Below, piece by piece: positions 1,657 through 15,635 of a stretch of DNA of 64,000 nt. The DNA comes from Actinomycetes bacterium (GTDB lineage: Bacteria > Actinomycetota > Coriobacteriia > Coriobacteriales > UBA8131). The translations under genes were made by a program, and so were the position numbers. Under the pieces are notes generated by a model that searched no databases, was not told where the DNA came from, and was given only the letters and a program-made list of their open reading frames with translations. The stretch covers positions 62,001 through 126,000 of the forward strand of contig WRGR01000043.1 in assembly GCA_009787085.1 (NCBI GenBank), in the 5' to 3' direction. Position 1 is the stretch's first letter; the number at the start of each line of letters is the position of its first letter.

Positions 1657-2475
1657 TCAGTGCATCCCCTTTTGATTCTCATAGCTGGCCTTCAGCTCGT
1701 CTAGCTGCTGGTGCAGACGGCGCTCGCGTAGACGGAAGCGGTAGAGGCCAAAGGCCACTAACAGCATGCCCAGCAGTGTCAGGATAAAGGGAACCAGCAT
1801 GGCCGGTGGCAAGCCGGAATCTGTGCGGAAGACTACGGGATGGGCACCTGCCGGTATTAGACGGGTGACGGCTAGGCTGATCAGGCCATCGACAAAGGCG
1901 ATGGCTCCGAAAGCCGAAGCAAAAACTGCCCGCCGCTCAGGGTCGTCGATGCCAGCACGCAAAATGAAATAGGCGATGACCAGTAGCATCAGAATCAAAT
2001 AAGTAGTTAGGCGGGGCTCCCACGTCCACCAGACACCCCACTCGAAACGCTCCCAAAGCTCCCCGGAAAGCATGGTCATGACGATAAAGAGCAGGGCTAT
2101 CTCGGCTGCCACCATGGCCTTCAGGTCATAGATCTGATCACGCTGGCGCAAGAACCGCAGCCCGTAGAGGGCCATCACGAAAAGGCCGATAAAGCTGACG
2201 ACCGCCACCGGCACGTGGAAGAAGAATATCTTTTGGGACAGCAGCAGCTTGTGCGTCACCATCTGCCCACCGATTAGAGCAGGAACATCCGCTTCAGCCC
2301 CCACTACCAACGGCGCTGTGGTAAAGGCCAATACGAAGCCTAGGCTGGCCAGCAAGGCTCCCGCCACCAACAGGGGCAGGAGCATCCGGTCGGCGAGCGC
2401 TGTCGCCGCACCTTCCACCACCGCTTTATCATCCCGCTCTGTTGTCTTCTTATCCTTCACAGCTTCCTCGCACAT
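1657..2475 (-). CDS. ccmC: Haem exporter/handling protein CcmC
   Basis: 272-residue polytopic membrane protein of the HemeHandling (WWD) family that presents haem to CcmE. The tryptophan-rich motif is WGVWWTWEPRLT (the proteobacterial form is usually WGTWWVWDARLT, so Asp-Ala is Glu-Pro here). Flanking histidines occur in FFFHVPVAVVSF and in AGAHPVVF. Six hydrophobic segments are visible, preceded by about 28 charged residues and followed by a short coiled-coil-like tail (LHQQLDELKASYENQ). It lies between ccmB and ccmD in one transcription unit. Confidence 0.93.
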   Translation of the reverse strand: MCEEAVKDKKTTERDDKAVVEGAATALADRMLLPLLVAGALLASLGFVLAFTTAPLVVGAEADVPALIGGQMVTHKLLLSQKIFFFHVPVAVVSFIGLFVMALYGLRFLRQRDQIYDLKAMVAAEIALLFIVMTMLSGELWERFEWGVWWTWEPRLTTYLILMLLVIAYFILRAGIDDPERRAVFASAFGAIAFVDGLISLAVTRLIPAGAHPVVFRTDSGLPPAMLVPFILTLLGMLLVAFGLYRFRLRERRLHQQLDELKASYENQKGMH

Positions 2476-2493
2476 CGCAGCCTAGATCACGTA

Positions 2494-3405
2494 TCAAGTC
2501 GATACTATAAAATCATAGAGCAACCAGCAGACCGGCAACATGATCAAATCGTAAGCAGCGGCCAGAACCATCGGCCGGGCGTAGTCCAGCGCCATATCGG
2601 GGCTGCCCACCAGAGCCGCCGTGGTTGCGGCAACCACGGTATAGAGCAAGGGGAAAATGACCGGGACGAACAGTATAGCCAGCAGCACATCGGTTCCCCG
2701 CGTACCGCTGGTTAGCGTGGCCAGCAGAGTGCCGACCCCGGCAATGCCGGCACTGCCCACCAGCAGCGGTCCGGCAACAAGCCAAAAGCTTGCAGCCAAT
2801 TCAAGGCCGCTGAGGAAGAAGACATAAAAGAGCGGGATTGTGACCGCCTCCACCACCAGCAAGAAAACCAAGTTGGCGCAGGCCTTGGCCAAAAAGATCA
2901 GCGACCGGTCAAGGGGCACCAGCAACACTCCTTCCCAGCCATCGGCCTCTTTCTCAGCCTTGAAACTGCGAGCCAAGCCGAGCAGCGAGGTGAAGACGAT
3001 CATCGCCCACATCAGGCCGCCGCTGATACTTATTAGGCTGATGCCGGGCGATGTCGGCGGCGATGCCGGGGTGCCCGCCGGCAGCACTGCGGCCACCCCG
3101 GACGTTGCAACTGGGCCAGTATGGGCAAAGGCCGCCCCGAACACCACCAACACCAACAGCGCATAGATGCCCATTGATGAGAGCATCTGACGGGTGCGCA
3201 GCTCTTGCTTGATATCGCGGTTGAAGAGGACGCAGAACTGGCGGAAGCCGGACGGCTTGGTAGGCGGGTTATTTGCTGGCTTGGCCGGCGGCTTGGCCGG
3301 CGGCTTGGCCGGCGGGTTATTCGATAAGTTGTTCGGCAGCACACCCAGCGAGCCCGTTGGTAGGTCTCCCGGCGAGTTGTCCACACGTTCGCCCGGTGCT
3401 GTCAT
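2494..3405 (-). CDS. ccmB: Haem ABC exporter permease CcmB
   Basis: 303 residues with six predicted membrane helices; CcmB is the permease partner of CcmA and is usually about 220 residues. The excess is mainly an N-terminal Pro/Lys/Asn-rich segment of about 50 residues made of repeated PPAK units before GFRQFCVLFNRDIKQELRTR, where family similarity starts, plus a Pro/Thr-rich loop after the first helix. The motif AEKEADGWEGVLLVPLDRS is typical of CcmB. The ATG overlaps the ccmA stop by 4 bp (ATGA), implying translational coupling. Confidence 0.92.
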   Translation of the reverse strand: MTAPGERVDNSPGDLPTGSLGVLPNNLSNNPPAKPPAKPPAKPANNPPTKPSGFRQFCVLFNRDIKQELRTRQMLSSMGIYALLVLVVFGAAFAHTGPVATSGVAAVLPAGTPASPPTSPGISLISISGGLMWAMIVFTSLLGLARSFKAEKEADGWEGVLLVPLDRSLIFLAKACANLVFLLVVEAVTIPLFYVFFLSGLELAASFWLVAGPLLVGSAGIAGVGTLLATLTSGTRGTDVLLAILFVPVIFPLLYTVVAATTAALVGSPDMALDYARPMVLAAAYDLIMLPVCWLLYDFIVST

Positions 3406-4397
3406 CTTGCCGTTCCGATCAGCTCGGCCAGCTCGTCTGGCCCAGGTGACCCACCGCCACCCAAAGCATCACGCTCTTCAAAGCAGGACAGTCGACCGTC
3501 GGCCAACACCAGCACATGGGAGGCCAGCCGCCAGCCGCGTTTTAGGTCATGGCTGGCCATGATAAAGCTGCGGCTAAGACGGATATCGGCGATCAAGGCA
3601 TCGAAGACCGCCGCCGCCTGCGGGTCGAGGCCCGAAACCGGCTCATCCAACAACAACAACTGGGGGTCGTTAACCAGCGCCCGGGCAATAGCCAAACGGC
3701 GGGTCATGCCCCAGGAGAAACCACGCACGGTGTCGTGGCGCCGATGTGTCAGCTTAACCGAATCCAGCAGCTCGGCGACCCGCTCTTCCGGATCAGCAAG
3801 GCCGTAGAGCCGGGCGTAGAAACTGAGGTTATCTTGCGCACTAAGGTCAGGGTAAAGCATCGGTTGATGCGAAACCACACCAATGCGAGCGCGTATCTGC
3901 TCAGGCTGTTCTTTGAGGTCGTAGCCTAAAACCTGCACACTGCCAACAGTCGGGCGCAGCAACGTTGCCAGTATTTGCAGCAAGGTCGACTTGCCTGCGC
4001 CATTGGCACCGAAAACGGAAAGGAAGGCGCCTTGTGGCAAACGGAAGTCCAAGCCGTCCAATGCCTTGCGTCCAGCAAAGCTCTTGGACAGTCCGGATAC
4101 TGCCACCGCTGGCGGTTCAGGCGATGGCGCACGGAGCGCCGGTTGCCCAACCGAGCGCTCACTCGGCATCTGCCCTGTCGCCCGCCCGTCCGCCGCCCGC
4201 CCGTCCGACGGCTGCCCGTCCGACGGCTGCCCGTCCGATGCCCGCCCGTCCGCCGCCCGCCCGTCCGACGGCTGCCCGTCCGACGGCTGCCCGTCCGATG
4301 CCCGCCCGTCCGACGGCTGCCCGGGCCTCAACCACGAACCCGCCAGATGTTCGCCCGCCGGCCACCCGGCCGGCTGCTCAACCGGACGCTGGCTCAT
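3402..4397 (-). CDS. ccmA: Haem ABC exporter ATPase CcmA, repeat-bearing N-terminus
   Basis: 331 residues. The ABC domain starts near residue 95 (VSGLSKSFAGRKALDGLDF), with Walker A GANGAGKST, Q-loop VVSHQP, signature FSWGMTRRLAIARAL and Walker B LLLLDEPVSGLDP. CcmA powers release of haem-loaded CcmE. The first ~90 residues are low complexity, with tandem DGRASDGQPSDGQPS-type repeats absent from ordinary CcmA (about 200-240 residues). The start overlaps the end of ccmF by 20 bp. An internal start nearer the ATPase domain cannot be excluded. Confidence 0.92.
   Translation of the reverse strand: MSQRPVEQPAGWPAGEHLAGSWLRPGQPSDGRASDGQPSDGQPSDGRAADGRASDGQPSDGQPSDGRAADGRATGQMPSERSVGQPALRAPSPEPPAVAVSGLSKSFAGRKALDGLDFRLPQGAFLSVFGANGAGKSTLLQILATLLRPTVGSVQVLGYDLKEQPEQIRARIGVVSHQPMLYPDLSAQDNLSFYARLYGLADPEERVAELLDSVKLTHRRHDTVRGFSWGMTRRLAIARALVNDPQLLLLDEPVSGLDPQAAAVFDALIADIRLSRSFIMASHDLKRGWRLASHVLVLADGRLSCFEERDALGGGGSPGPDELAELIGTAR
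4181..4324. repeat. Minisatellite inside ccmA (60-bp unit built of 15-mers)
   Basis: Two almost identical 60-bp units (4201-4260, 4261-4320) plus partial flanking units, each composed of degenerate 15-mers such as CCGTCCGACGGCTGC. The repeat is a multiple of three, so copy-number change would leave the ccmA frame intact. It encodes the Asp-Gly-Arg/Gln repeats of the CcmA N-terminus. Confidence 0.9.
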
Positions 4398-6651
4398 GGG
4401 TTTCTCCTACTTGAGCTTCTCGCAAACTCGCCTGGCGTGGGCCGAGCGCAGACAGCGCACTGCCTAGCATCAGGGCAGCAAAGCCCCACCATACCAAGCC
4501 GATCAGCGGGTTTACCTTAACATCCAGCGAAAAGGCATTTTGGGCATTGACGCCTTGGTAGACAACAAACAGATCGCCAAAAACAAAGGAGAGCGTCGCC
4601 GGGCTCAGTTGCCGCTGCCCGCTGGCGGCATCGATGCGAATGCTCGGGCTGACCTGCCCGACTATCTGATCGCTGCGATAAACATCAAAACTAACACTGT
4701 AGGAGACATCATTGCCGTTGGCAGCAGAGTCAGTATTGCTGCCAGCATATTTCAGGGTGAAGTCCTGAATGGTAAAGTCATTTGTAGCCGTGCCACTTTG
4801 CTCGTCGTAGGCAACATAGCCCGTTGTTTCGGTGACGTACATCGATGAGCTGATCAGCCCCACCAAGATGACCGCCACTGCCAAGTGGGCAATCAAGCCG
4901 CCGGCCTGTGGTACTAACGAGGCTAACGAATTGGAGCCGACAGCCCCGTTGCAGCCCCGCCGCCGCAAGCGAACGTGCCTACGAACCTGCCGCCCCAACA
5001 GCACCAGCGAGTTAAAGAAGAGCAGTGCCGCCACCAAAAAGCCGAGCACCGTCAACAAGAAGTAGTACCAGCGCGGACCGGCTCCAAAAACCGCCCCGGC
5101 CGTCGGGCTGGACACAGCCGAAGCGGTCAGTGATGCAACACTTGCATCGTAGCTGGGCACTAGGTAGCAGACGAAATAGACCATCAACCCGGCAAATAAC
5201 AGGCCGGCGAAAAGGGCAGGCGGCTTGGCATGCCGCAAAAAGCGGACGCGGTCGTTGCACCCCCAAGCTATCAGCGGGCAAACCGCCATCAAAGCACAAT
5301 AGAGTATGCCCAGTGGCCGGGCCATGGCGTTGTAGGCCACCGCCGAGAAGCTCTGGCCGCCGAACGGCAACCAAGTAGGCAGGGCAGGTGCAACGGTCAT
5401 ATAGGTAATGAGCAGCGCCGCCAACAGCATCACGAAATTGTTGAAGAAATAGGCGTTATCCCGGGTCAACAGCTGCTCGCCTGCTCCGAAGTCACCGGTA
5501 TTGGCAAAGCTTTGCCGCCGCCAGAGCAAGCCGAGGCCACCAGCAGCCACCGCCATCACTATCAAGACTAGGAAAACTACCGACGACAACGGTGCAGCCT
5601 CGAAGGCATGTACGCTCTGGACGATGTCTGAGCGGGAGATAAAGGTGCCGACGATCACGAAAGCAAAGGCCAGGCAGGCCGCCATAACGCTCCAACGCTT
5701 AAAGGCACCGCGCTGGCGGTAGACCGTAAAGCTGTGGATCAAAGCCACCGAAAGTATCCACGAGAGCAGGCTGGCATTCTCCACCGGATCCCAGCCCCAA
5801 TAGCCTCCCCAGCCCAACACCACGTAAGCCCAAATGGCGCCAAGGCCAATGCCCAGCCCCAAGAACAGCCAAGCGATAAGCGCAAAACGGTTGCTAGCGT
5901 GCACCCAAGCGCTGGAGTCATCGTTGCTGATCAGCGCGGCCAAGGCATAGGCAAAGGGGATAGTCAGGCCGGCATAGCCGACAAACAGCGTCGGCGGGTG
6001 GACGGCCATCGCCCAATGCTCAAGCAGCGGACTCAAGCCCCAGTTGGCAGCCGCACCGCTAAGTGTGCCATCAGCAGCCAGATACTGCAGGGGAGTCGGG
6101 GCAAAGGGCATGTTCTCTGGCGAGAAAACCAGCACTGCCAGCAAGGCCAAGGCCACCAACTGCGACACTGCCAAAGCCAAGCTGTCCAGCTTTCGCAGAC
6201 GGCGGATATCACCTATCGCTATCACTAGGTTGAAGGCCGAAATCAGCCAGCCCCAGAAAAGCAAGGAGCCGCCGCGACCTGCCCAAAGACCGGAGATCTT
6301 GTAGAGCCAAGCCAAAGACGAATCGGAGCCAGAACAGTACTGCGCCACGTATTGGATGGAGAAATCACCGCTGATGAAGCAGTATAGGAGCACGGCACAG
6401 CAGCAGCTAAGGGCGACGAAATTGAGGATCACCGCTAAATGCCCGGCCAGTTTGAGGCGACCAGCAAGCTCGATGCGGCCACCGGCGGCAGTGCTGGCGG
6501 CGGACTCGGAAGACCCAACAAGCGCAATGTTGCTGCCGCTTGTATGCCTATTTAGCAAAGCCCCCCAAACCAACAAGACCACCGAAATGATACCCGTCAC
6601 AAAGGCGATGATGAGGCCGATCAGGCCTAGGGTGGCAAAGCTCATCGTCAT
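4378..6651 (-). CDS. ccmF: Haem lyase subunit CcmF
   Basis: 757 residues, many membrane helices. CcmF is the haem-attachment component of System I, joining haem from CcmE to apocytochrome cysteines outside the membrane. Visible features are the WWD motif WGGYWGWDPVENASLLSW, the histidine-bearing HWAMAVHPPTLFVGYAG, and a large extracytoplasmic C-terminal domain (TTGYVAYDEQSGTATNDF) before the last helix. Length is slightly above the usual 640-660 because of low-complexity loops. It overlaps ccmE by 4 bp and ccmA by 20 bp. No ccmH follows. Confidence 0.95.
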   Translation of the reverse strand: MTMSFATLGLIGLIIAFVTGIISVVLLVWGALLNRHTSGSNIALVGSSESAASTAAGGRIELAGRLKLAGHLAVILNFVALSCCCAVLLYCFISGDFSIQYVAQYCSGSDSSLAWLYKISGLWAGRGGSLLFWGWLISAFNLVIAIGDIRRLRKLDSLALAVSQLVALALLAVLVFSPENMPFAPTPLQYLAADGTLSGAAANWGLSPLLEHWAMAVHPPTLFVGYAGLTIPFAYALAALISNDDSSAWVHASNRFALIAWLFLGLGIGLGAIWAYVVLGWGGYWGWDPVENASLLSWILSVALIHSFTVYRQRGAFKRWSVMAACLAFAFVIVGTFISRSDIVQSVHAFEAAPLSSVVFLVLIVMAVAAGGLGLLWRRQSFANTGDFGAGEQLLTRDNAYFFNNFVMLLAALLITYMTVAPALPTWLPFGGQSFSAVAYNAMARPLGILYCALMAVCPLIAWGCNDRVRFLRHAKPPALFAGLLFAGLMVYFVCYLVPSYDASVASLTASAVSSPTAGAVFGAGPRWYYFLLTVLGFLVAALLFFNSLVLLGRQVRRHVRLRRRGCNGAVGSNSLASLVPQAGGLIAHLAVAVILVGLISSSMYVTETTGYVAYDEQSGTATNDFTIQDFTLKYAGSNTDSAANGNDVSYSVSFDVYRSDQIVGQVSPSIRIDAASGQRQLSPATLSFVFGDLFVVYQGVNAQNAFSLDVKVNPLIGLVWWGFAALMLGSALSALGPRQASLREAQVGETHEPASG

Positions 6652-7436
6652 TTTTTCAGGGCAACGTCGCTGGCCACAAACACTCCCTGGGCGTTCAGGG
6701 AGCCAGTAAGCACCACCTCGGAGCCTTGCGCTACGTCAGCCGGAAGCGCGGTTTGGCAATCGACCGGCAATATGTCGGTGGCCGCTGAACCCTGAAGCAC
6801 AAAATGAGCCGCCGGGGGTGCCGGGGATGCCGGGGGTGCCGGGGATGCCGAAATCGCTTGGGACGATGGGTCTGCCGGAGCCGTTTGAGCCGATGACGGC
6901 AGCGGGGAATCCGAGGATTCCGGGGCAGCCTGAGCCATCTGCCCCGCTGAAACAAGGCTGCCAGCCTGCACAGTACCGGTAACCTTCATCGGCACACCGA
7001 TGGCTTGGTCACCGTAGCCCAAAAGCTGGGAGACACTCAGCGCATCGGTAGCCTCTTCATATTTAGAAGGACACTTGGTAACCAGTTCGCTGGCATCAAG
7101 CACATTGTCAGCCGCCATGACGCCCGTGCAAATAGCCACGACCTGATTGCCGAAAGTGGCCGAAGACGAACCGCTGTAGCGCACCGCCAATTGCATAGCG
7201 GGGTCGCTGTCATCATAGATGGAAAAACAAAGTGTGCCGCCCTCAGTGCGGACAGAATCGCCCACCACCTTGCCGCTGACTTGAACGCGCTGCCCCGATA
7301 AACCGCCAGCAGCAGCCTCGGCGACCGACACCGGGTGAAAACCCAAGCCCCCTTGTACCACCGCCACTGCAGCAACTGCGACAGCAACAACCACACAGCA
7401 CACCGCAATCAACCGCCGCCTAAGTTTCTTGTTCAT
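6648..7436 (-). CDS. ccmE: Haem chaperone CcmE, cysteine (CxxxY) type with a second OB-like half
   Basis: 262 residues; residues 1-30 form a membrane anchor. Residues ~47-118 resemble the CcmE OB fold (GQRVQVSGKVVGDSVR, LCFSIYDD, AVRYSG). At 122-126 it reads CPSKY, so the haem-binding site is C-x3-Y, not the H-x3-Y of E. coli. This variant is known from archaea and Desulfovibrio. After it comes another beta-rich segment (IGVPMKVTGTVQAG ... VVLTGSLNAQGVFVASDV) interrupted by a Pro/Ala/Ser linker at 165-210, as if the OB domain were duplicated and split. First gene of the operon. Confidence 0.85.
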   Translation of the reverse strand: MNKKLRRRLIAVCCVVVAVAVAAVAVVQGGLGFHPVSVAEAAAGGLSGQRVQVSGKVVGDSVRTEGGTLCFSIYDDSDPAMQLAVRYSGSSSATFGNQVVAICTGVMAADNVLDASELVTKCPSKYEEATDALSVSQLLGYGDQAIGVPMKVTGTVQAGSLVSAGQMAQAAPESSDSPLPSSAQTAPADPSSQAISASPAPPASPAPPAAHFVLQGSAATDILPVDCQTALPADVAQGSEVVLTGSLNAQGVFVASDVALKK

Positions 7437-7664
7437 CTGCTCCTCTTGTGTTAATCAAAAACAAACCCGGTAACCAGCCATAAGATTCAACTACACACTA
7501 GCATTATGCCATAACACACTGTTGCAAGAGCATCCTCGCCGGTCGACTCACCATCGCATCTGCAACTGGCGGCCAGTGTCACCTGCAGGTTGTCAGAAAT
7601 AATGAACAGCCCATTATTGGGATATAATTACTATCAAGGTAGTAACGTATAAAGGATGTGCTTG

Positions 7665-8120
7665 ATGGAAGATGCGACAATTGAATCATCAGCTTCTAGA
7701 GCCGATGAGCAGTCATGCCAACCAGCGGCTGCGGTGGCTGATGCCGGTTCTGCAAACGCCAACACTGGCGCTGGGAGTGCCGCCGTGGCCACTGTGCCAG
7801 ACGCAGCAGCCAGTAGCTACGACCACAAGACGGCTACGTTTTGGACGGCGCTGATCGGCTTCGGTTTGGTCTTCGAGTTTCTTGGCCGCCTTTTCGGACT
7901 TCAAGGCAATCCAACAGGCCTCTGGCTGGAGTTCATACCCCTGCTGAGCACCGTCATCTCAGCGTTGATCATCCTCTTCGCAGTGCTGCGGCTGATGCCT
8001 GCTTGGTCGATGCGCAATCTGGCCAACTTTCGCCAGTCAGTACTGATGATCCTGCTCGGAACGACAATGCTCGTAGGCTCGATGGCCTGTAAGCCCATCG
8101 TCGCTGCGGTTTTCGGGTAG
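7665..8120 (+). CDS. Hypothetical membrane protein
   Basis: 151 residues from the ATG at 7665, chosen because AAAGGA lies 8 nt upstream; the ATG at 7656 would overlap that site. About 50 N-terminal residues are Ala/Ser-rich and probably disordered. They are followed by three hydrophobic segments (WTALIGFGLVFEFLGRLFG, LEFIPLLSTVISALIILFAV, SVLMILLGTTMLVGSMAC). I recognise no family. It is followed 9 bp later by another small membrane protein, so the two probably form a pair. It is divergent from the ccm operon. Confidence 0.7.
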   Translation: MEDATIESSASRADEQSCQPAAAVADAGSANANTGAGSAAVATVPDAAASSYDHKTATFWTALIGFGLVFEFLGRLFGLQGNPTGLWLEFIPLLSTVISALIILFAVLRLMPAWSMRNLANFRQSVLMILLGTTMLVGSMACKPIVAAVFG

Positions 8121-8128
8121 GCCGCAAT

Positions 8129-8713
8129 ATGCAGAATATCGCGAGCTCTGCCCAAGCCGCCGCCCAAGCCGCCGCCCAAGCCGCCGCCCAAACCGCCGCC
8201 CAGAATTCTACCCAAGGCGTCACGCAAGCAGCCCCGCTCCAAACTGAATCCCAGCTTACCCAAAAAGCCAGCCACCACGGCCAGATACTGTTGGTACCAA
8301 CTAGGGTTTTGCTGTTGATCGCCGCTTCGGCTTGGCTTATTGCCGGTGTCAATGTGGTGATTGTCGGTCTTGACGCAACCACAGTTGCTTGGACATGGCC
8401 AATGGCTGTAGGGTTTCTCCTAACCTTTACTGTCTTTTTCGTGATATTCATGATAGTGTCCCAGCAGAATGCCCGGCGTGTCTTTGATTGCCAAAAGCCC
8501 CTGAGCTTCATCCTCCAATTCTTTGATGCCCGTTCCTACATCATCATGGCGGTGATGCTGTTTTTGGGTGCCGCAGTGCGCATCTCCACATTTGTGCCCG
8601 ACCCGATCATCGCCTTCTTTTACGGTGGGCTAGGATTTGCCCTGATTTTTGCCGGCCTTTACTTGGTCATCCTGTACATCCAGAACTGGAAAGGCAGCCA
8701 CTTCGATAACTGA
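8129..8713 (+). CDS. Hypothetical membrane protein with Ala-Gln repeats
   Basis: 194 residues. The N-terminus carries AAAQ repeats (AQAAAQAAAQAAAQ) and a Thr/Gln-rich stretch to about residue 50. Four hydrophobic segments follow (VLLLIAASAWLIAGVNVVIVG, AVGFLLTFTVFFVIFMIV, IMAVMLFLGAAV, GGLGFALIFAGLYLVILYI), with conserved-looking DCQKPLSFILQFFDARSY between the second and third. No family recognised. It is 9 bp downstream of the previous membrane-protein gene and likely cotranscribed with it. Confidence 0.7.
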   Translation: MQNIASSAQAAAQAAAQAAAQTAAQNSTQGVTQAAPLQTESQLTQKASHHGQILLVPTRVLLLIAASAWLIAGVNVVIVGLDATTVAWTWPMAVGFLLTFTVFFVIFMIVSQQNARRVFDCQKPLSFILQFFDARSYIIMAVMLFLGAAVRISTFVPDPIIAFFYGGLGFALIFAGLYLVILYIQNWKGSHFDN

Positions 8714-8820
8714 GCGGCGTATAAATAGCCGGCATTATCGAGCGGGCGACCATGAGGCCAAAGTGCTGATACTGCAAGCAACGTAACTGCCTGCAAACAG
8801 CGGGGGGTTCTTTTGTGTCA

Positions 8821-8834
8821 ACACTGATCAGTGT
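8821..8834. promoter_or_regulatory. Perfect 14-bp palindrome, possible operator
   Basis: ACACTGATCAGTGT is its own reverse complement and sits just upstream of the ABC-transporter remnant. A regulator-binding site is possible, but no regulator gene is left nearby. Confidence 0.3.
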
Positions 8835-8838
8835 CTGA

Positions 8839-9246
8839 AATCTGACAAAGAGCTTCAAGGATAAAGAAGTGGTTCATGGCATTGGCTTTGATGCTCAATC
8901 CAGCGAAACGCTCTGCCTGCTCGGCCCAAGTGGAGCCGGTAAGAGCACAACGATCAACATTTTGGTCGGCGCCCTCAGAGCCGATGCTGGCAGTGTCGAG
9001 TATCTGAGCACCAGCATCTATGCCAATTTAGCTGGCAGCTTTTTCCCAACCACCCAGAATGACTCCGTTCTATACACTGTCATCCGGGTGCTGCCCCAAA
9101 AGGCCTTGCTGTCGCTGGCCGAGTCCTTGGAACAACAGCTTGCAATTGGCCAGTGGTATGGCTGGGCCGTGTGCATCGGCATCCTGGCCGTAGCCTACCT
9201 GGTCGCAGCGACACTCAAAGTCAGGCACGATTACGCAAGGGGTTAG
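8839..9246 (+). pseudogene. ABC transporter deletion remnant: ATPase head joined to permease tail
   Basis: The frame opens at NLTKSFKDKEVVHGIGFDAQ, the usual beginning of an ABC ATPase just after its missing start, and includes Walker A GPSGAGKST. It runs only to ADAGSVEYL (about residue 55) and then changes into STSIYANLAGSFFPTTQ and a C-terminal membrane helix (WAVCIGILAVAYLVAATL) followed by a basic tail, typical of the end of an ABC-2 permease. Q-loop, signature and Walker B are absent. An in-frame deletion from the ATPase gene into its permease neighbour explains this. It cannot act as a transporter. Confidence 0.75.
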
Positions 9247-9285
9247 GGAAGCGCCGGTCAATGCCGTTGCGCCAGATTGCGAGCC
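9243..9285. repeat. Dispersed element, one end (copy J)
   Basis: TTAGGGAAGCGCCGGTCAA followed shortly by the core word AGATTGCGAG. The TTAG contains the stop codon of the ABC remnant. No matching right end is visible within 150 bp. Confidence 0.6.
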
Positions 9286-9373
9286 GCGCCGCAACCGGTG
9301 CCATAGTCGGCTACCGTGCCTTTTCAGCCCTGCCCGAGCGCAGCGTCTTGGTGCCATTTGACAGAGTCGCGCA

Positions 9374-10680
9374 TCACCCCAGCAGCCTCCTGAACTCCGG
9401 CCGCACATCGCCGCTGAGTTCCGCCAGCGGCATGACGACCGGGTAGCACTGGTTGTCCCAAGTGGATCAGAGCACTACCAGGTCCTGCCCGTCGACGCAG
9501 TACGGCTGGTGGTAGTCGGGGGACGTGTCTTGGAGCCTGAGCTCCTCGTCGACCCCGCCCGCCGACGAGGCAAAGTGGTACTGTGCCAGCTGGCCGTAGG
9601 CGCTGTCGATGAACGCCTCGCAGCGTTTCCATCGGCACGTCGGAGCCGTCCCTGAACACTTCTGCGAATGTCTTCTCCCACCAGCCTAAATAGGCCTGAA
9701 GCACCAAGGCATCGAACTGCTGCTGGCTGAACACTATGTTATCCTTGTCGGGTCTCTCATAGTCGGTGCAGATGACATAGGCCGCCACTTTGGCAGCGGC
9801 CTATGTGCTAGGGCTGTTCCCCTTCTTGTTTGCCCAGCTATTCCAAGTCGTGCAAACCTTGCCGTAATCGTCTTCCAATTCGCCAACCACCATCTTCCCC
9901 TCGGCCAGAAGCGCCTGAGACTCAATGATGGTGTCCCCGCCGCCGTTGACGCTCCTGTAAACCCCATCAGCGTGTAGCAGCGTCCCCACGACCACTGGAC
10001 GGTGCCGAGGCCGAAGCCGATCGAGTTCTCTGCCGTGTGCGCCTTGCCCGGCAGGTACCAGCCGTCGGCGTTCAGCTTGAACACCAGGTTGTAGACGGTG
10101 GTCAGGTTCTTGTTGTAGATGCGCTGGCCGGAGTACCCCTTCCGGTAGTTGTAGAACTTGTCCATGTTGATGAGGTAGTACGGCTCCGGCGTCGGGGCGT
10201 TGTCGTAGTTGGAGGACTCGAACTTCCCGGTATTGCCCTCGCTGCAGATGTTGCCCAGGAGGCCTGCGACGAAGGCCGGCCGGTAGCCACCCTTGAGCAT
10301 CGTCCGTGCGACATCGACACAGGCGGCCTCCACATCGTCTGGGACATGGCCGCTGCTCCTTATGTTGCCCAGCATCACCTCTATCCAGCCGGTGCTCTCG
10401 GGGACGGCCATGAACACGGCGCGGAAGGCGGCGAAGCCCCCCCCCTGCACCGTCCCGCCGCCCACCACCATGAGGAACTCCGCCCACGCCGCCCTGACCT
10501 GCTCCTCCGGCGAGGCGGCAGATGGGGCGTAGGCGCTGTAGGAGGCATGTCCGTAAACCGCGCCGACCACCGTGAAGACCCTCTGCTGCAGCACGTGCCT
10601 GCCCGAGTGGTCCGCAGCCGCCAGCAGTGGCACCGCCCGCCCGAACCGCCTTGGAACGGCCCTGCTCACAATCCCTCATA
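9374..10680 (-). pseudogene. Phage-tail-lysozyme-like secreted protein, multiply broken
   Basis: The minus strand gives one protein spread over shifted frames. The best part reads GYRPAFVAGLLGNICSEGNTGKF ... FGLGTVQWSW, the pattern of the phage tail lysozyme domain (muralytic, glutamate near the start of GNICSEG). One frameshift lies near 9965, an in-frame TAG at 9801-9803 (tail resumes at AAAKVAAYVICTDYER), a second frameshift near 9625 (resuming EAFIDSAYGQLAQYHF), and an in-frame TGA near 9467 before the apparent true end at 9374. The N-terminus lacks a start and signal peptide. Relatives occur as secreted proteins in Coriobacteriia. Confidence 0.7.
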
Positions 10681-10687
10681 CTGCCGA

Positions 10688-11443
10688 TCAGGCATCCAGA
10701 TAGATAAGGTGCCCGGTGCCTTTGAGGCGAAGGATCACGCTGTCACGGAGTGCCTGTTCTAGGCATTTGGCCGTGACTAGCACCTTCCGGTAGGTCTTCT
10801 CAGCGACAACGATCACCACCTTTGAGCGGACAGCCTCTGCCCGCTTTAGGTGGTCGAGCTTCTCGTATCTGCGCAGCATGCGCAGGTAGTAGTTATTGAC
10901 CTCCCGGTTCCAGACCCGGTTAAAGGTTCGAAGTTGCTGGGGGGAAAAGATGTGCAGCCAGTTCAACAGGCCAACAAGGGGGCCGAACTTGACCGCCTGC
11001 CCGAAAAAGAAGTCATGGAGCACTTTGAACAGCGGCACGGTGATCAGGCGGATGATCAAAGGCATGTAGATCATGCACTCCATCAAGATCAGGCTGTCGA
11101 TATGACCCGGGTGGCGAATGGCGTAGTCCAAGGCGAACACCGAGCCGAGGCAGTAGCCACAGAGGGAGAGCGAGGCCAGACCCTCCTCCCGCCTGATCGT
11201 CTCGATGATCTCGGCAATGTCCTCTACGCTGCAGCCGTCTAGAAAATCAGACTCGCCATAGCCCGGCAAATCGATGAGAATCTGCTGGTAACCGACAAGG
11301 GCGGCCTGCATCCGATTGGTGCGGAAAATGTCCCGCCTCTGGTTCAGGCCATGGAGGCAAAGCATCGCCGGGCCGGTGCCCACGACCTCGTACCTGATTC
11401 GTCGCTGGCGTATCAGGATATGCTTATCGACCCCTTCTGTCAC
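10688..11443 (-). CDS. Alpha/beta hydrolase with cysteine nucleophile, short C-terminus
   Basis: 251 residues from GTG at 11443, which overlaps the radical SAM stop (GTGA) with GAAGGG upstream; a longer in-frame ATG at 11503 lies inside the neighbour. Family features are oxyanion HG at 31-32, DLPGYGES (59-65), nucleophile elbow GYCLGS with Cys98 where Ser is usual, and a terminal GTGH with His245. Only six residues follow that histidine, whereas relatives usually continue for about 25-30, so the gene may be truncated where it meets the lysozyme remnant. Substrate unknown; it is the last gene of the methyltransferase/radical SAM operon. Confidence 0.8.
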   Translation of the reverse strand: MTEGVDKHILIRQRRIRYEVVGTGPAMLCLHGLNQRRDIFRTNRMQAALVGYQQILIDLPGYGESDFLDGCSVEDIAEIIETIRREEGLASLSLCGYCLGSVFALDYAIRHPGHIDSLILMECMIYMPLIIRLITVPLFKVLHDFFFGQAVKFGPLVGLLNWLHIFSPQQLRTFNRVWNREVNNYYLRMLRRYEKLDHLKRAEAVRSKVVIVVAEKTYRKVLVTAKCLEQALRDSVILRLKGTGHLIYLDA

Positions 11444-12699
11444 TTGGCACCCTTCATCAGGCGATAGAACAGAGGCATCCTGCCTTCGCTTCTCAAGCCG
11501 CATTTCGCCAGACAGCCGCAGTTGGGGCCGCCGCAGGCAACGTGCATCCGCTTCCAGATCTCAAAAACATCCTGGTCGAGAAGGTTGCCGAAAGCCTTGT
11601 CGATAAAGTCACAGGGGCCGAAGTTGCCACGGGAGTCCACGTAGGAGTGCTGTGTCCCGGCTCCACAGCCAAACTGCTCATCACTCTCAAAATAGGGGAA
11701 CACCGATGCCTTGATGTGGCTGCGGCTAGAATTAAAAGTGATATGGAGCTTTTTTAGTGCCTCTACCTCCTCAGCAGCCAGCGTTGAGTGTCTGTCTCCG
11801 CGCAGCTTTCCGCAGGGCAGGGGCTCCATAATGCGCATCTCGTCCACAGCGAGCGTCTTGAGGAGCAGTGCTAGCCTCTCCAAGTCGCCGTTTTGCAGTG
11901 TCTTTTTGGTAGCTACCGTTTGACTCATGGTGTAAAGCCCGGCCTTTTTGGCATTGACAATGGCATCGATCGCGATCTGGAAGGCGCCCTCATACTGCCT
12001 AAGGGCGTCGTGGTCGGCGGCGTTCGGCGAGTCAACACTGATCGCAATGCCTGACAGGCCTGCCCGCTTCAGTGCGCAGGCACGCTCGTAGCCCAGTCCG
12101 TACCCTGTTGAGAAAACATAGGCGACGCTCGTCGGCCTCACCGCTGCGATTATCGTCTCCAAGTCGTCGCGCAACAGCGGCTCACCGCCCGTAAGACCGA
12201 TAATACTCACACCCAGCAGCTGTAGCTGCTCCACGATATACAGCATCTGCCCTGTGCTGAGCGAGCCGGCGGCATCGGAGCCGCCGGCCGGTTGGCCTTC
12301 GCTGCCCTTCCCGACCTCGCCACCTTCAACCTGCACGTTCCGCCTTTGGGCACTACAGTGCCAACAGCTGTAACGACAGGCATCAGTGACAGCGACGTAT
12401 GTTGAGATCGGTGCTTTCCGAAGCCCTTGAGCGTGATTGTCGAAGAATGCCTCGCCCTCGCCGGGAACCTGCATGACCATGTTGCGGAAAGCCTCGCTGT
12501 TCAGCGGGGGAATAAAGGAGTTCACGAGAATTTGGCCATCATGAGTCACCAGGCGATCATGCTTGATGACATTCAGACCGCAGGCGACCATGTTCCTGGC
12601 ACGATAGTCGCTCGACTCCGAAAAGCGTTTATGCAGTTGCCGGAATGTCTGGCGACACTGCCTGTTTAACAGCATTTTGGAAACCATCAGCGCGTTCAT
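11440..12699 (-). CDS. Radical SAM/SPASM-type protein
   Basis: 419 residues. Cys108, Cys112 and Cys115 form CRYSCWHC, the CxxxCxxC site for the SAM-binding 4Fe-4S cluster. GLTGGEPLLRDD follows as the SAM-binding GGEP motif. The C-terminus has clustered cysteines (FGCGAGTQ, GPCDF, ACGGPNCGCLAKCG), typical of a SPASM/twitch region holding auxiliary iron-sulfur clusters. About 95 N-terminal residues precede the core. A Gly/Ser-rich insertion lies at about 123-145. Its ATG overlaps the upstream methyltransferase stop (ATGA). No precursor peptide is seen, so the substrate is unknown. Confidence 0.88.
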   Translation of the reverse strand: MNALMVSKMLLNRQCRQTFRQLHKRFSESSDYRARNMVACGLNVIKHDRLVTHDGQILVNSFIPPLNSEAFRNMVMQVPGEGEAFFDNHAQGLRKAPISTYVAVTDACRYSCWHCSAQRRNVQVEGGEVGKGSEGQPAGGSDAAGSLSTGQMLYIVEQLQLLGVSIIGLTGGEPLLRDDLETIIAAVRPTSVAYVFSTGYGLGYERACALKRAGLSGIAISVDSPNAADHDALRQYEGAFQIAIDAIVNAKKAGLYTMSQTVATKKTLQNGDLERLALLLKTLAVDEMRIMEPLPCGKLRGDRHSTLAAEEVEALKKLHITFNSSRSHIKASVFPYFESDEQFGCGAGTQHSYVDSRGNFGPCDFIDKAFGNLLDQDVFEIWKRMHVACGGPNCGCLAKCGLRSEGRMPLFYRLMKGAK

Positions 12700-13559
12700 C
12701 CCAGTTCCTCTTTCTCAAAAACGCCGTATACGAAGGAGTGGGTGATGCTTCTCGTCTGTGCTTGGCCGAACAGCACCGCCATTTCCCCTTTTACCTTACG
12801 GTCACGCAGGTCTATCATAGCATCGAAGCCAGCTAGGGCACCAGTCGAGGTAACGAACTCGACTGCGGAGCTGGGCCCGTCAAACCAAAAGACATGGGAA
12901 AGGCTGTTGCCTGCCTTTGCGCTGAACCCGCTGCTCCTTGCCCAGCGCAGAAGATCCGCCTCGGTTTTGGGGTTGGGCAGCTCCAACATCAGTTTGTCAA
13001 TTCGGTCGACGTTGTTCGCCAGCAGCTTCGGGTACACCCTGCGCACCTCGGGCAGGGTCTGCCTAGTGTTCACTATCACGGCAAGGACCCCGTTTTGCCT
13101 CAAAACCCGGTAGCACTGCCGGATCAGCTTCCGGGGGTTTTGGTATTTCAGCGCCCAACTGCAGACGATCAGGTCATATGTGTCACGGCCGGCCGACTCC
13201 AGGAAAGACAACATGTCCCTATGATGGCGAACGACATCGGCAGCTCCCGGTATGCTTCCCAGCATACCGGATGATATGTCCACTGCGTCGAAACGGCTGC
13301 CCGGGCAGGCCGCTCTCAGGTATCCGATGTTATAGCCTGTCCCACAGGCCAAATCCAAGATGCTCAGGCCCTGCCTCTGCCGTAGCCGGCGTACGGCCTG
13401 TTCGAGCAGCTCATCGTTATAGGCTGACATTGTACCCATAAACACATCGTCATATTTCGAACTCACGGCGTCGTAGGAGGCGGCAATGTCATCCTTTGTG
13501 ATAATTCTGTTGCGCAGGAACAGCCATGCAACCCTCATATAGAGCCTGATCCTCTTCAC
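12696..13559 (-). CDS. Class I SAM-dependent methyltransferase
   Basis: 287 residues. Motif I is LSILDLACGTGYNIGYL, with acidic motif II DAVDISSGML and post-motif DLIVCSWALKYQNPRKLIRQCYRVL, as in UbiE/Methyltransf_11-type enzymes. The C-terminal third (WFDGPSSAVEFVTSTGALAGFD) is a less common extension that may bind substrate. Second gene of a four-gene operon, coupled to the radical SAM gene by a 4-bp overlap and 18 bp after another methyltransferase. Substrate unknown. Confidence 0.87.
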   Translation of the reverse strand: MKRIRLYMRVAWLFLRNRIITKDDIAASYDAVSSKYDDVFMGTMSAYNDELLEQAVRRLRQRQGLSILDLACGTGYNIGYLRAACPGSRFDAVDISSGMLGSIPGAADVVRHHRDMLSFLESAGRDTYDLIVCSWALKYQNPRKLIRQCYRVLRQNGVLAVIVNTRQTLPEVRRVYPKLLANNVDRIDKLMLELPNPKTEADLLRWARSSGFSAKAGNSLSHVFWFDGPSSAVEFVTSTGALAGFDAMIDLRDRKVKGEMAVLFGQAQTRSITHSFVYGVFEKEELG

Positions 13560-13577
13560 GTTATCTTCACGCTGCCT

Positions 13578-14156
13578 TCAGGTTGCAGCTTTTCTGCCAA
13601 TACACATGTAGTCCCTCGGGCTCAACTCCATGAGCTCGGCGGCCATGCCCCGCTCCGTGCTTAGCTCCTTCAACCGCTCGGGCCAAATAGGGTAGACCCG
13701 CTCAAAGCAGCAGCGCTCAAAGACAAGCAGCATCCTGGCAGACAAGGATTTCGGGTTGAAGTCCTGTATCAATATCCGCCCATTGTCGCTGAGATAGCCG
13801 TAACAGCAGTCCAAGACTGCCGCTTGGCTTTTAATGTGATGGAGGACATCCCTGAGAACAATGACATCAGCCTTGGGAATATCCAGCCCGGGCACATACT
13901 CTGAGTTGACTACAGAAATGTTCGAGTTCTTCGCCAGCGCCACCCTTGTCATCGCTTCGCTGGGATCGATCAGGTACACCGCCTTGCCGCACCTTTCCAG
14001 GGCATCAGCAAGGGTGCCGGTGCCGCCGCCGATGTCATGAACCACGGAGCATTCCTCGGATTCGATTCTCTTTAGCAGAGCGCCGCAGTCATCTAGGTGA
14101 AAGAGCCTCATGAAAGAATCGTATGGCCTGGCAAATCTATCGAACAAAAAACTCAT
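13578..14156 (-). CDS. Class I SAM-dependent methyltransferase
   Basis: 192 residues if started at ATG 14156 (MSFLFDRFARPYDSFMRLF), chosen because relatives begin this way and GGGG lies upstream; the frame is open to 14243. Motif I is VVHDIGGGTGTLADAL, motif II VYLIDPSEAMT, and VIVLRDVLHHIKSQ follows. The first gene of the operon with the second methyltransferase, the radical SAM protein and the hydrolase. Divergent from the signal-peptide pseudogene at 14337. Confidence 0.85.
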   Translation of the reverse strand: MSFLFDRFARPYDSFMRLFHLDDCGALLKRIESEECSVVHDIGGGTGTLADALERCGKAVYLIDPSEAMTRVALAKNSNISVVNSEYVPGLDIPKADVIVLRDVLHHIKSQAAVLDCCYGYLSDNGRILIQDFNPKSLSARMLLVFERCCFERVYPIWPERLKELSTERGMAAELMELSPRDYMCIGRKAAT

Positions 14157-14336
14157 CCAAATTACCCCGTCACTAAAAACAGGTCTGCTGTAGTGGTTGA
14201 ATGCTTTAACCCTGATGGATACACCTGACCCATGATAGTACATACAAGACTAAAATGGAGGCGGCGCCTCGCAACAAGGCAAGCCTTTGTGATGGGGAGG
14301 GAGTGCTCCGGGAGGCGACTCAAAAGAAGCACGGTT

Positions 14337-14782
14337 ATGAGAAAGGAGATTGTTTCTGTGTTGCTGGTCGGCCTGCTTTTGGTTCCGGGAGCAGTTGTCT
14401 GTGCGTCGCAGTCCAATCCCGTTACCAGCGATATCCGCGCTGTGAACAGCGTCGTGCCTATCTCCAGCGGGCGTGCGGCGAATTACACCTCGATCTGCCA
14501 GTACGCGCCCACGTGGTCAAGAATTCAGGGTGAGATCAAGAAGTGTCCTTCCGGAACTACTGGACGGTGCCCATAACGCAGGGGATGCGCGAGTGGTACC
14601 GCGAGAACAATTTTGTGAACGAAGGCGGGGACCACCTCTTCTTGGAGGGCATCGGCACGATCAATGACAAGGCCACTGTTGGCAGCGACTGCAAGCTCAC
14701 GGTCACCGGCACCGGCAGCAAGGCGCACAAGTACCGCCTCTGCCTGATACCCCCCCAGCTAGGCGATCCTCCCCATGTTTGA
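14337..14782 (+). pseudogene. Secreted protein gene with one frameshift
   Basis: Frame one starts MRKEIVSVLLVGLLLVPGAV, a signal peptide, and continues to SRIQGEIKK. Near 14543 the sense shifts to another frame, reading VSFRNYWTVPITQGMREWYR and ending at KYRLCLIPPQ. Joining the two gives a secreted protein of about 148 residues. I recognise no family. It faces away from the methyltransferase operon. A sequencing error at the shift would make it an intact gene. Confidence 0.5.
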
Positions 14783-14849: not shown

Positions 14850-15635
14850 GTGAGTACTGAGGGCACTGAAAGCTCGACCGATCAGAAAAGTGCTGAGACC
14901 ATCGAAAGCTCAACGGATCAGAAAGGGTCTCGCAAAAAGCTCCGTACGAAACGCCCCAAGAATCCCAGAAGGCGGATAGCCATCGCTGTTGTCATCGTAG
15001 TGGTGGTTGTGGCCGCTGGTGCCGGGCTCTGGCGCTGGCATGAGCAGCCGAGTTTCTGCGGTGCGGTCTGCCACACGCCGATGGCCAGCTATTACGACAC
15101 CTACACAGCCAAGGCCGGCCAGCCGACAACGGACAAGTATGGCAATGCTGTCACTAACTCCAACGCTATGCTGGTTACTCTGCACGCCGAGGCCGGTGAC
15201 GACTGCCTGAGCTGTCATGTCCCCACTCTCCAAGAGCAGTTCGATGAGGGCATCCACTGGATCACCGGTAACTATTACAGCCCCTTGAAGGAGCGTGGCC
15301 TTACCGACCTGATGCTTTACCACGGCGCTACAACCGACGAGGAATCCAAAGGTTTCTGCATCAACGCCAGCTGTCATAGCGATTTGTCTGACCCGGCCAC
15401 CTTCGCCGCCTTGACAAGCAGCTATGCTGAGTGGAGTCCGCACCAACCGCCCGTAGACTTCACCCACTCCAATATCAACCCCAGTACCAACCTGCTTTGC
15501 AGCAACTGCCACAAGTCGCATCGCGCCTCGACCAACTACTGCACTTCCTGTCACAATGGCGTAGCACCGCTTCCGGAAGGCTGGGTTTCCTACAGCGAGG
15601 CCAGGAAGCTACTGGGTTCGGCCGCCAGCAATTAG
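14850..15635 (+). CDS. NapC/NrfH-like multihaem cytochrome c with expanded haem motifs
   Basis: 261 residues from GTG with AGGAAGG upstream. Residues 1-40 are charged and cytoplasmic; 43-62 form a membrane anchor. Five haem sites follow: CGAVCH (70-75, C-x3-C-H) with HTPM as in the NrfH first haem, CLSCH (119-123), CINASCH (170-176, C-x4-C-H), CSNCH (217-221) and CTSCH (231-235). Such proteins pass electrons from menaquinol to a periplasmic-side reductase. No catalytic partner gene is in the window, so the terminal acceptor is unknown. The ccm operon lies 7.4 kb upstream. Confidence 0.85.
   Translation: MSTEGTESSTDQKSAETIESSTDQKGSRKKLRTKRPKNPRRRIAIAVVIVVVVVAAGAGLWRWHEQPSFCGAVCHTPMASYYDTYTAKAGQPTTDKYGNAVTNSNAMLVTLHAEAGDDCLSCHVPTLQEQFDEGIHWITGNYYSPLKERGLTDLMLYHGATTDEESKGFCINASCHSDLSDPATFAALTSSYAEWSPHQPPVDFTHSNINPSTNLLCSNCHKSHRASTNYCTSCHNGVAPLPEGWVSYSEARKLLGSAASN

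Follow-up and report, generated by a model that had tools for sequence, protein, structure and literature searches.

A recurrent radical SAM/SPASM-centred operon in a Coriobacteriales genome as a candidate small-molecule tailoring cassette

The four-gene operon and its recurrence

A 64,000-nucleotide stretch of the genome of an Actinomycetes bacterium of the order Coriobacteriales (GenBank assembly GCA_009787085.1, contig WRGR01000043.1, positions 62,001 to 126,000; the whole stretch is referred to here as the window) carries four intact open reading frames (ORFs) on its minus strand, transcribed in the order MT1, MT2, rSAM and ABH (Table 1). A first-pass annotation, made from the letters alone, had read them as two methyltransferases, a radical S-adenosylmethionine (SAM)/SPASM protein and a cysteine alpha/beta hydrolase, and Pfam bears this make-up out. 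The methyltransferases belong to the Methyltransf_23/_11/_25 families (MT1, Methyltransf_23, 65.4 bits; MT2, Methyltransf_25, 50.1 bits), and rSAM is placed in the radical SAM superfamily by matches to Radical_SAM (60.5 bits, gathering 29.5) and SPASM (25.1 bits, gathering 21.5). ABH matches Abhydrolase_1 (63.3 bits, gathering 25.8), has the nucleophile elbow and catalytic His of the alpha/beta hydrolase fold, and has a Cys nucleophile that is conserved in all four aligned ABH proteins. No NCBIfam curated cut-off is reached by any of the four. Although the MT1 frame stays open upstream to 14243, the ATG at 14156 matches the starts of its homologues. The longest ORF of ABH begins at 11503, inside the rSAM gene, and its start was placed at 11443, at a GTG that overlaps the rSAM stop (GTGA), because the homologues begin there. 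With these starts, MT1 and MT2 are separated by 18 bp, and the MT2/rSAM and rSAM/ABH junctions each overlap by 4 bp, in agreement with the spacing first described; the four genes are probably translated together.

Cassettes of this kind were found at 16 loci, the window included, which fall into two branches. The window's branch otherwise comprises Clostridium aminobutyricum (locus L006), L084 (genome G888), L106 (G1342) and L107 (G1348), and the distant branch holds 11 loci (L018, L019, L020, L021, L022, L023, L024, L083, L113, L114 and L115) in Clostridia-side genomes, with rSAM proteins about 34–36% identical to that of the window (seven aligned). A scan of genome contigs with rSAM returned one relative, that of C. 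aminobutyricum, in which MT1, MT2 and rSAM are consecutive and 43, 44 and 49% identical to their window counterparts, respectively; an ArsC-like gene lies upstream of MT1 in this genome, its end 6 bp away. The complete MT1-MT2-rSAM-ABH order occurs in two further genomes, namely at L084 (MT1 6195-6818, MT2 6815-7717, rSAM 7710-8906, ABH 8903-9700), whose rSAM is 59% identical to that of the window, and at L106, while L107 preserves rSAM-ABH at a contig edge. All 14 testable loci have MT2 immediately upstream of rSAM (L020 has a partial MT2 near a contig edge), and MT1 is present in 12 of the 13 that can be judged, being split over two frames in L021 and missing from L024; at L023 and L107 the contig ends at rSAM, which makes the upstream genes untestable. 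Beyond the cassette genes, no neighbour is common to all loci. This recurrence of gene order in divergent genomes, those of scattered anaerobes, is far beyond chance, and the conserved core is MT1-MT2-rSAM, with the hydrolase confined to one branch.

How widely is the cassette spread? In the order of C. aminobutyricum, nine of 297 sampled genomes matched rSAM at E ≤ 1e-45, these being that species, seven genomes with a cassette and G267, where the context is different. In its phylum, 45 of 398 genomes matched at E 1e-40, G549 and G888 among them; most of these matches score about 140–158 bits with the core alone aligned, and the surroundings were examined for G247 and the nine best. The order of G888 contains rSAM relatives in three of 73 sampled genomes (G888, G1342 and G1348), and its class in six of 391, including three further cassettes (G1704, G1597 and G1486). 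In the window's own order, no cassette was found beyond this genome, which accounts for the single positive among 60 relatives and among 247 sampled genomes. Its own phylum yielded 27 of 396 genomes at E 1e-40, and the 26 besides this one score at or below about 202 bits; nine of these relatives (L092-L100) were examined as possible cassettes and rejected, with no MT1 or MT2 homologue beside rSAM. A tblastn search of a plasmid collection with rSAM at E 1e-30 returned no match, and the 19 stretches of viral contigs that fit an alignment-derived pattern included no relative.

Table 1. Coordinates of the operon genes, of predicted functional sites and of a further gene set with a radical SAM relative.
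Feature	Coordinates	Strand	Description
MT1	13578-14156	-	Class I SAM-dependent methyltransferase, Methyltransf_23; first gene; ATG start
MT2	12696-13559	-	Class I methyltransferase; GTG start; conserved C-terminal region
rSAM	11440-12699	-	Radical SAM/SPASM protein; ATG start; ~95-residue N-terminal extension
ABH	10688-11443	-	Cys-nucleophile alpha/beta hydrolase; last gene; GTG start
CX3CX2C motif CRYSCWHC, rSAM residues 108-115	12355-12378	-	Radical SAM cluster
SPASM region of rSAM: Cys345, Cys363, Cys394, Cys396	11512-11667	-	From alignment of relatives
Codon of predicted ABH nucleophile Cys98, GYCLG elbow	11150-11152	-	From alignment and model
Five GMC-set loci	L087 8043-11518; L088 5697-9324; L089 5516-9145; L090 7716-11330; L025 6478-9921		Radical SAM relative, small proteins, GMC-type oxidoreductase

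Predicted catalytic features

The radical SAM motif CX3CX2C is present in all 16 cassette rSAM proteins. In the C-terminal region, Cys345, Cys363 and Cys396 are conserved in 21 of 21 aligned relatives, and Cys394 occurs only in the window's branch (five proteins). Canonical SPASM domains carry seven cysteines that bind two auxiliary clusters, in the pattern CX9-15GX4C ... CX2CX5CX3C, and rSAM departs from this pattern: its first half is kept (Cys345-X12-G-X4-Cys363) and is followed by Cys396, with or without Cys394. Because this set falls short of the canonical seven, the alignment points to a single auxiliary cluster, ligated by three or four Cys residues. A three-Cys auxiliary cluster, such as that of MoaA, leaves one iron free for substrate. 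An AlphaFold model of rSAM (predicted local distance difference test (pLDDT) 76.6, predicted template modelling score (pTM) 0.81) was compared with known structures, with families judged here and for ABH among the matches listed; the best match is SkfB (6efn; Z 24.3, root-mean-square deviation 3.1, 271 aligned), closely followed by viperin-like enzymes, SuiB, BlsE, PqqE and MoaA. As judged from the model, this likeness is that of a shared core and implies no common function.

For MT2, the most strongly matched NCBIfam family is BioC in all seven aligned members (best E 2.3e-23), and in C. aminobutyricum the match spans positions 21-242 of the 244 in the profile at 77 bits. The window's ABH is 31–35% identical to the proteins encoded directly after rSAM in L084, L106 and L107, and Cys98 (in a G-x-C-L-G elbow), Glu122 and His245 are invariant in all four. 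In its AlphaFold model (pLDDT 68.6, pTM 0.71), Cys98 sits between strand 92-97 and helix 99-110, and Glu122 comes directly after a strand; in a profile alignment this residue pairs with the Glu that follows the sixth strand in 5mxp, an alpha/beta hydrolase of solved structure. Some haloalkane dehalogenases use a Glu in this position as their catalytic acid, and we infer that Cys98, Glu122 and His245 form the catalytic triad. The structural neighbours of ABH are many alpha/beta hydrolases at Z 16–18 (best 17.8), and because they score nearly equally the fold gives no substrate. The BioH, MenH and polyhydroxyalkanoate (PHA)-depolymerase models match all four ABH proteins, in every case under the cut-off. 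In the distant branch, an unrelated alpha/beta hydrolase (21% identity to ABH) lies directly upstream of MT2 at L024.

Genomic setting, origin and wider relatives

Broken frames lie on both sides of the operon, at 8869-10669 and 14232-14782. They comprise a truncated ABC ATPase frame (8869-9246), in which an ABC ATPase start is fused to a permease-like end, a frameshifted phage-lysozyme-like region whose protein is split between frames (9324-10669), and small broken frames that include a small, split, secreted-looking protein (14232-14782). The first-pass annotation had placed the operon among decayed genes, which holds for these immediate flanks, but a cytochrome-c-like gene (14850-15635) comes directly after the broken frames and is followed at once by what are presumably map/adk/secY-like genes. 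Its comparison with an accessory island likewise stands in part: the phyletic distribution favours it, but nothing in the composition speaks for a recent island. GC content at third codon positions (GC3) is 0.68–0.77 in the four genes and averages 0.685 (standard deviation 0.059) in the 45 long ORFs of the window, a mechanical list in which not all entries are genes; a composition signal of recent transfer was sought in the window only and was not found, the operon lying within the ORF spread. Further along the minus strand, a gene row at 1657-7436 carries putative ccm-like genes and resembles a cytochrome c maturation set, and at 3402-4397 (minus strand) the start of an ABC-ATPase-like protein contains tandem repeats of SDGQP/SDGRA units.

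In the rSAM tree, from which four outer rows are omitted, the window groups with C. aminobutyricum, L084, L106 and L107 (support 100/100) and lies next to the latter three (99/95). Distribution and tree fit horizontal transfer between Clostridia and this lineage, in either direction, and if the operon was acquired it would since have been ameliorated, because its GC3 resembles that of the window's other long ORFs. A helix-turn-helix (HTH) gene overlaps MT1 by 4 bp in L106, and in L083 the gene immediately ahead of MT1 is its homologue (53% over 147 residues); this regulator does not adjoin the window's operon. Because the same regulator occurs in both branches (L106 in the window's, L083 in the other), the view that the two represent one shared system is supported.

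More distant relatives of rSAM occur in other contexts. At L116 (8755-10062) and L117 (9282-10586), all three radical-SAM cysteines are replaced and the three SPASM cysteines are retained, so that these are apparent pseudo-radical-SAM proteins judging by their residues; a little way downstream of each is a very large protein of secreted appearance (1825 and 1853 amino acids). Five loci share another conserved set, in which small proteins and a GMC-type oxidoreductase come after a radical SAM relative (Table 1).

Proposed function and comparison with known systems

A fundamental question is what a cassette of this kind modifies. We hypothesize, at a probability of roughly 0.4, that it is a self-contained, horizontally spread operon that tailors a small carboxylic substrate, probably acyl-, polyketide- or lipid-like, by a cycle of masking, radical chemistry and unmasking. 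Gene content, order, coupling and conserved residues are what was observed, and each reaction that follows is one that we infer from them. MT2 would O-methylate the carboxylate of the substrate and thereby mask it, much as BioC masks the carboxylate of malonyl thioesters by methylation. rSAM would form a 5'-deoxyadenosyl radical for chemistry at C-H or C-C bonds, with its putative auxiliary cluster held by three cysteines (four in the window's branch), and MT1 would add a further methyl group. ABH, through its predicted Cys98-Glu122-His245 triad, would finally remove the ester or thioester or transfer the acyl group; in branches without ABH the masked product may be kept, or an esterase of the host may be used. 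Two wider contexts suggest acyl-type specialised metabolism for the larger rSAM family. At L086 (7102-16322), a relative is accompanied by two ketosynthases, a polyketide cyclase, an NAD epimerase, two carotenoid-synthesis-like membrane proteins, a methyltransferase and a hydrolase, which looks like an unusual anaerobic polyketide cluster, and at L085 (269-6617) a radical SAM/SPASM relative stands in a row with two B12-binding radical SAM proteins and a GH3-family protein. A more elaborate form of the hypothesis, which is tentative and which we consider rather doubtful, is an undescribed anaerobic pathway that Clostridia and this lineage share through horizontal transfer. Its masking methyltransferase, its second methyltransferase, its Cys-hydrolase and an rSAM whose auxiliary cluster is open to the substrate would jointly convert a widespread acyl or lipid precursor to a modified lipid or signal molecule of a new kind.

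Several observations weigh against this assignment. The equivalog scores are low, with window MT2 at 58.1 bits against a BioC cut-off of 184.95 and ABH at 40 bits against a BioH cut-off of 206.95, and the folds of both, class I methyltransferase and alpha/beta hydrolase, are promiscuous. An ABH homologue is absent from all 11 distant-branch loci. The top NCBIfam scores of rSAM go to NirJ2 and AhbD, and its best fold match, SkfB, is a peptide maturase. The L086 and L085 clusters inform only loosely, because their rSAM relatives have no recognised MT2 (at L085, only 268 upstream bases are available); both relatives also sit on long tree branches.

Could the substrate instead be a ribosomal peptide? 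SPASM proteins often mature peptides, and the fold likeness to the maturase SkfB points the same way; rSAM would then crosslink a peptide encoded nearby or at a distance, the methyltransferases would methylate it and the hydrolase would trim or tailor it, as in ribosomally synthesized and post-translationally modified peptide (RiPP) pathways. However, at 13 loci a comparison of the 706 small ORFs lying no more than 2 kb away yielded only the HTH gene and chance-like pairs, with none of the conserved adjacent precursors by which a RiPP pathway is recognised, and the leader ORFs that precede MT1, compared at nine loci, bear no mutual likeness. One of these, a 23-codon ORF at L084 (6127-6198), has a strong ribosome-binding site and overlaps the MT1 start by 4 bp, which would suit a precursor, but none of the eight further loci examined has a like sequence ahead of MT1. 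rSAM shows no RRE/PqqD-type Pfam match at E ≤ 0.1 in a search of the full-length protein (the N-terminal part was neither searched nor folded alone), and no peptidase or transporter is common to the loci. RiPP maturation is for these reasons improbable. The earlier remark that neither a precursor peptide nor a carrier protein was visible held up, with no precursor conserved at 13 loci and no carrier seen among the neighbours.

Modification of a tetrapyrrole, with an AhbD/NirJ-related rSAM acting on a haem-like ring and the methyltransferases and esterase on side-chain carboxylates, would explain the best NCBIfam matches of rSAM (NirJ2, 95 bits in the window and 103 in C. aminobutyricum; AhbD, 89 and 108) as well as a 46-bit match of C. 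aminobutyricum MT2 to BchM. These scores miss cut-offs of 500 bits widely. HemB was found in 11 of 14 genomes searched (drafts of 13 cassette carriers and G746) but not in G1342, which has the full four-gene operon, G295 or G321, where incompleteness is possible, and we consider this substrate distinctly unlikely. The same genomes bear on methylation of a quinone or other prenyl ring, for which a UbiE/MenG-like MT2 (matched by all seven) and a UbiG-like MT1 (UbiG being among its top matches) would speak; yet UbiA prenyltransferase was not found in three of the 14 drafts (G339, G321 and G275, of which G321 lacks HemB as well), the UbiE/MenG matches are weaker than those to BioC, and no quinone methylation known to us involves a radical SAM/SPASM step, which leaves this reading with very little probability. 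Together, the HemB and UbiA absences are suggestive, weighing a little against tetrapyrrole and quinone substrates. A fixed cellular target, modified post-translationally or at the RNA level, is brought to mind by C. aminobutyricum, where a TIGR01177-like, RNA-methyltransferase-related gene (L006, 9185-10123) takes the position of ABH and overlaps rSAM by 4 bp. It was seen at one locus of 16, and so patchy a spread (one of 247 genomes in the window's own order) does not suit a housekeeping modification, so that such a target would be surprising. We give equally low credence to the reading that the operon is, in this genome, a functionless remnant in the course of decay: the broken frames on both sides and the long end branch of the window's rSAM (0.6) would fit decay, but the four genes are intact with predicted catalytic residues and coupling retained, and the short C-terminus of ABH is common to L106 and L107.

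The tailoring of a small carboxylic substrate remains our working model, and as far as the searches reach the cassette is an undescribed radical SAM/SPASM-centred module outside every curated equivalog tested. A literature search, which covered few subscription papers and is weak evidence of absence, found no paper on it. No assignment of rSAM to a known pathway with matching neighbours emerged, which leaves standing the first impression that no known pathway of this exact make-up comes to mind. The suggestion of an undescribed small-molecule modification system is likewise supported by the unreached NCBIfam cut-offs, by the lack of a conserved precursor and a carrier, and by conservation of the unit elsewhere, a small molecule being the presumed substrate. 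Much new enzyme chemistry comes from radical SAM/SPASM enzymes of unassigned substrate, and here the conserved partners narrow the search. A cassette of three to four small genes, with no carrier and no large cluster, could be transferred whole to a laboratory host for assay, and the change of fourth gene between branches, together with one loss and one break of MT1, provides natural experiments on the order of steps.

Comparison with known systems places the cassette near several of them. AhbD and NirJ2 (TIGR04545, TIGR04055) are the nearest curated families of rSAM by score and have a SPASM C-terminus in common with it, but the rSAM proteins of the window and C. aminobutyricum stay at 89–108 bits, carry an N-terminal extension and have other neighbours. 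SkfB, the sporulation-killing-factor maturase, shares 19% identity with rSAM over the best fold match and differs in that no conserved precursor peptide accompanies the cassette. The carboxyl masking of biotin synthesis is closest in logic, since methylation by BioC (nearest to MT2 in seven of seven) and later ester cleavage by BioH (matched by ABH in four of four) is the sequence proposed here; however, BioH uses a Ser nucleophile whereas ABH has a Cys, the cassette misses the cut-offs, and the operon adds rSAM and a second methyltransferase. The tetraether lipid synthase GDGT-MAS (7tol) has the radical SAM core in common with rSAM (Z 19.6), with a weak sequence match (E 0.00094) that is confined to the core (profile 106-261). 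Finally, the ladderane lipid clusters proposed in Kuenenia combine radical SAM enzymes and SAM methyltransferases for anaerobic lipid chemistry; as described, they contain fatty-acid synthase genes, unlike the cassette, and the two are likened by gene types and not by homology (PMC2649909).

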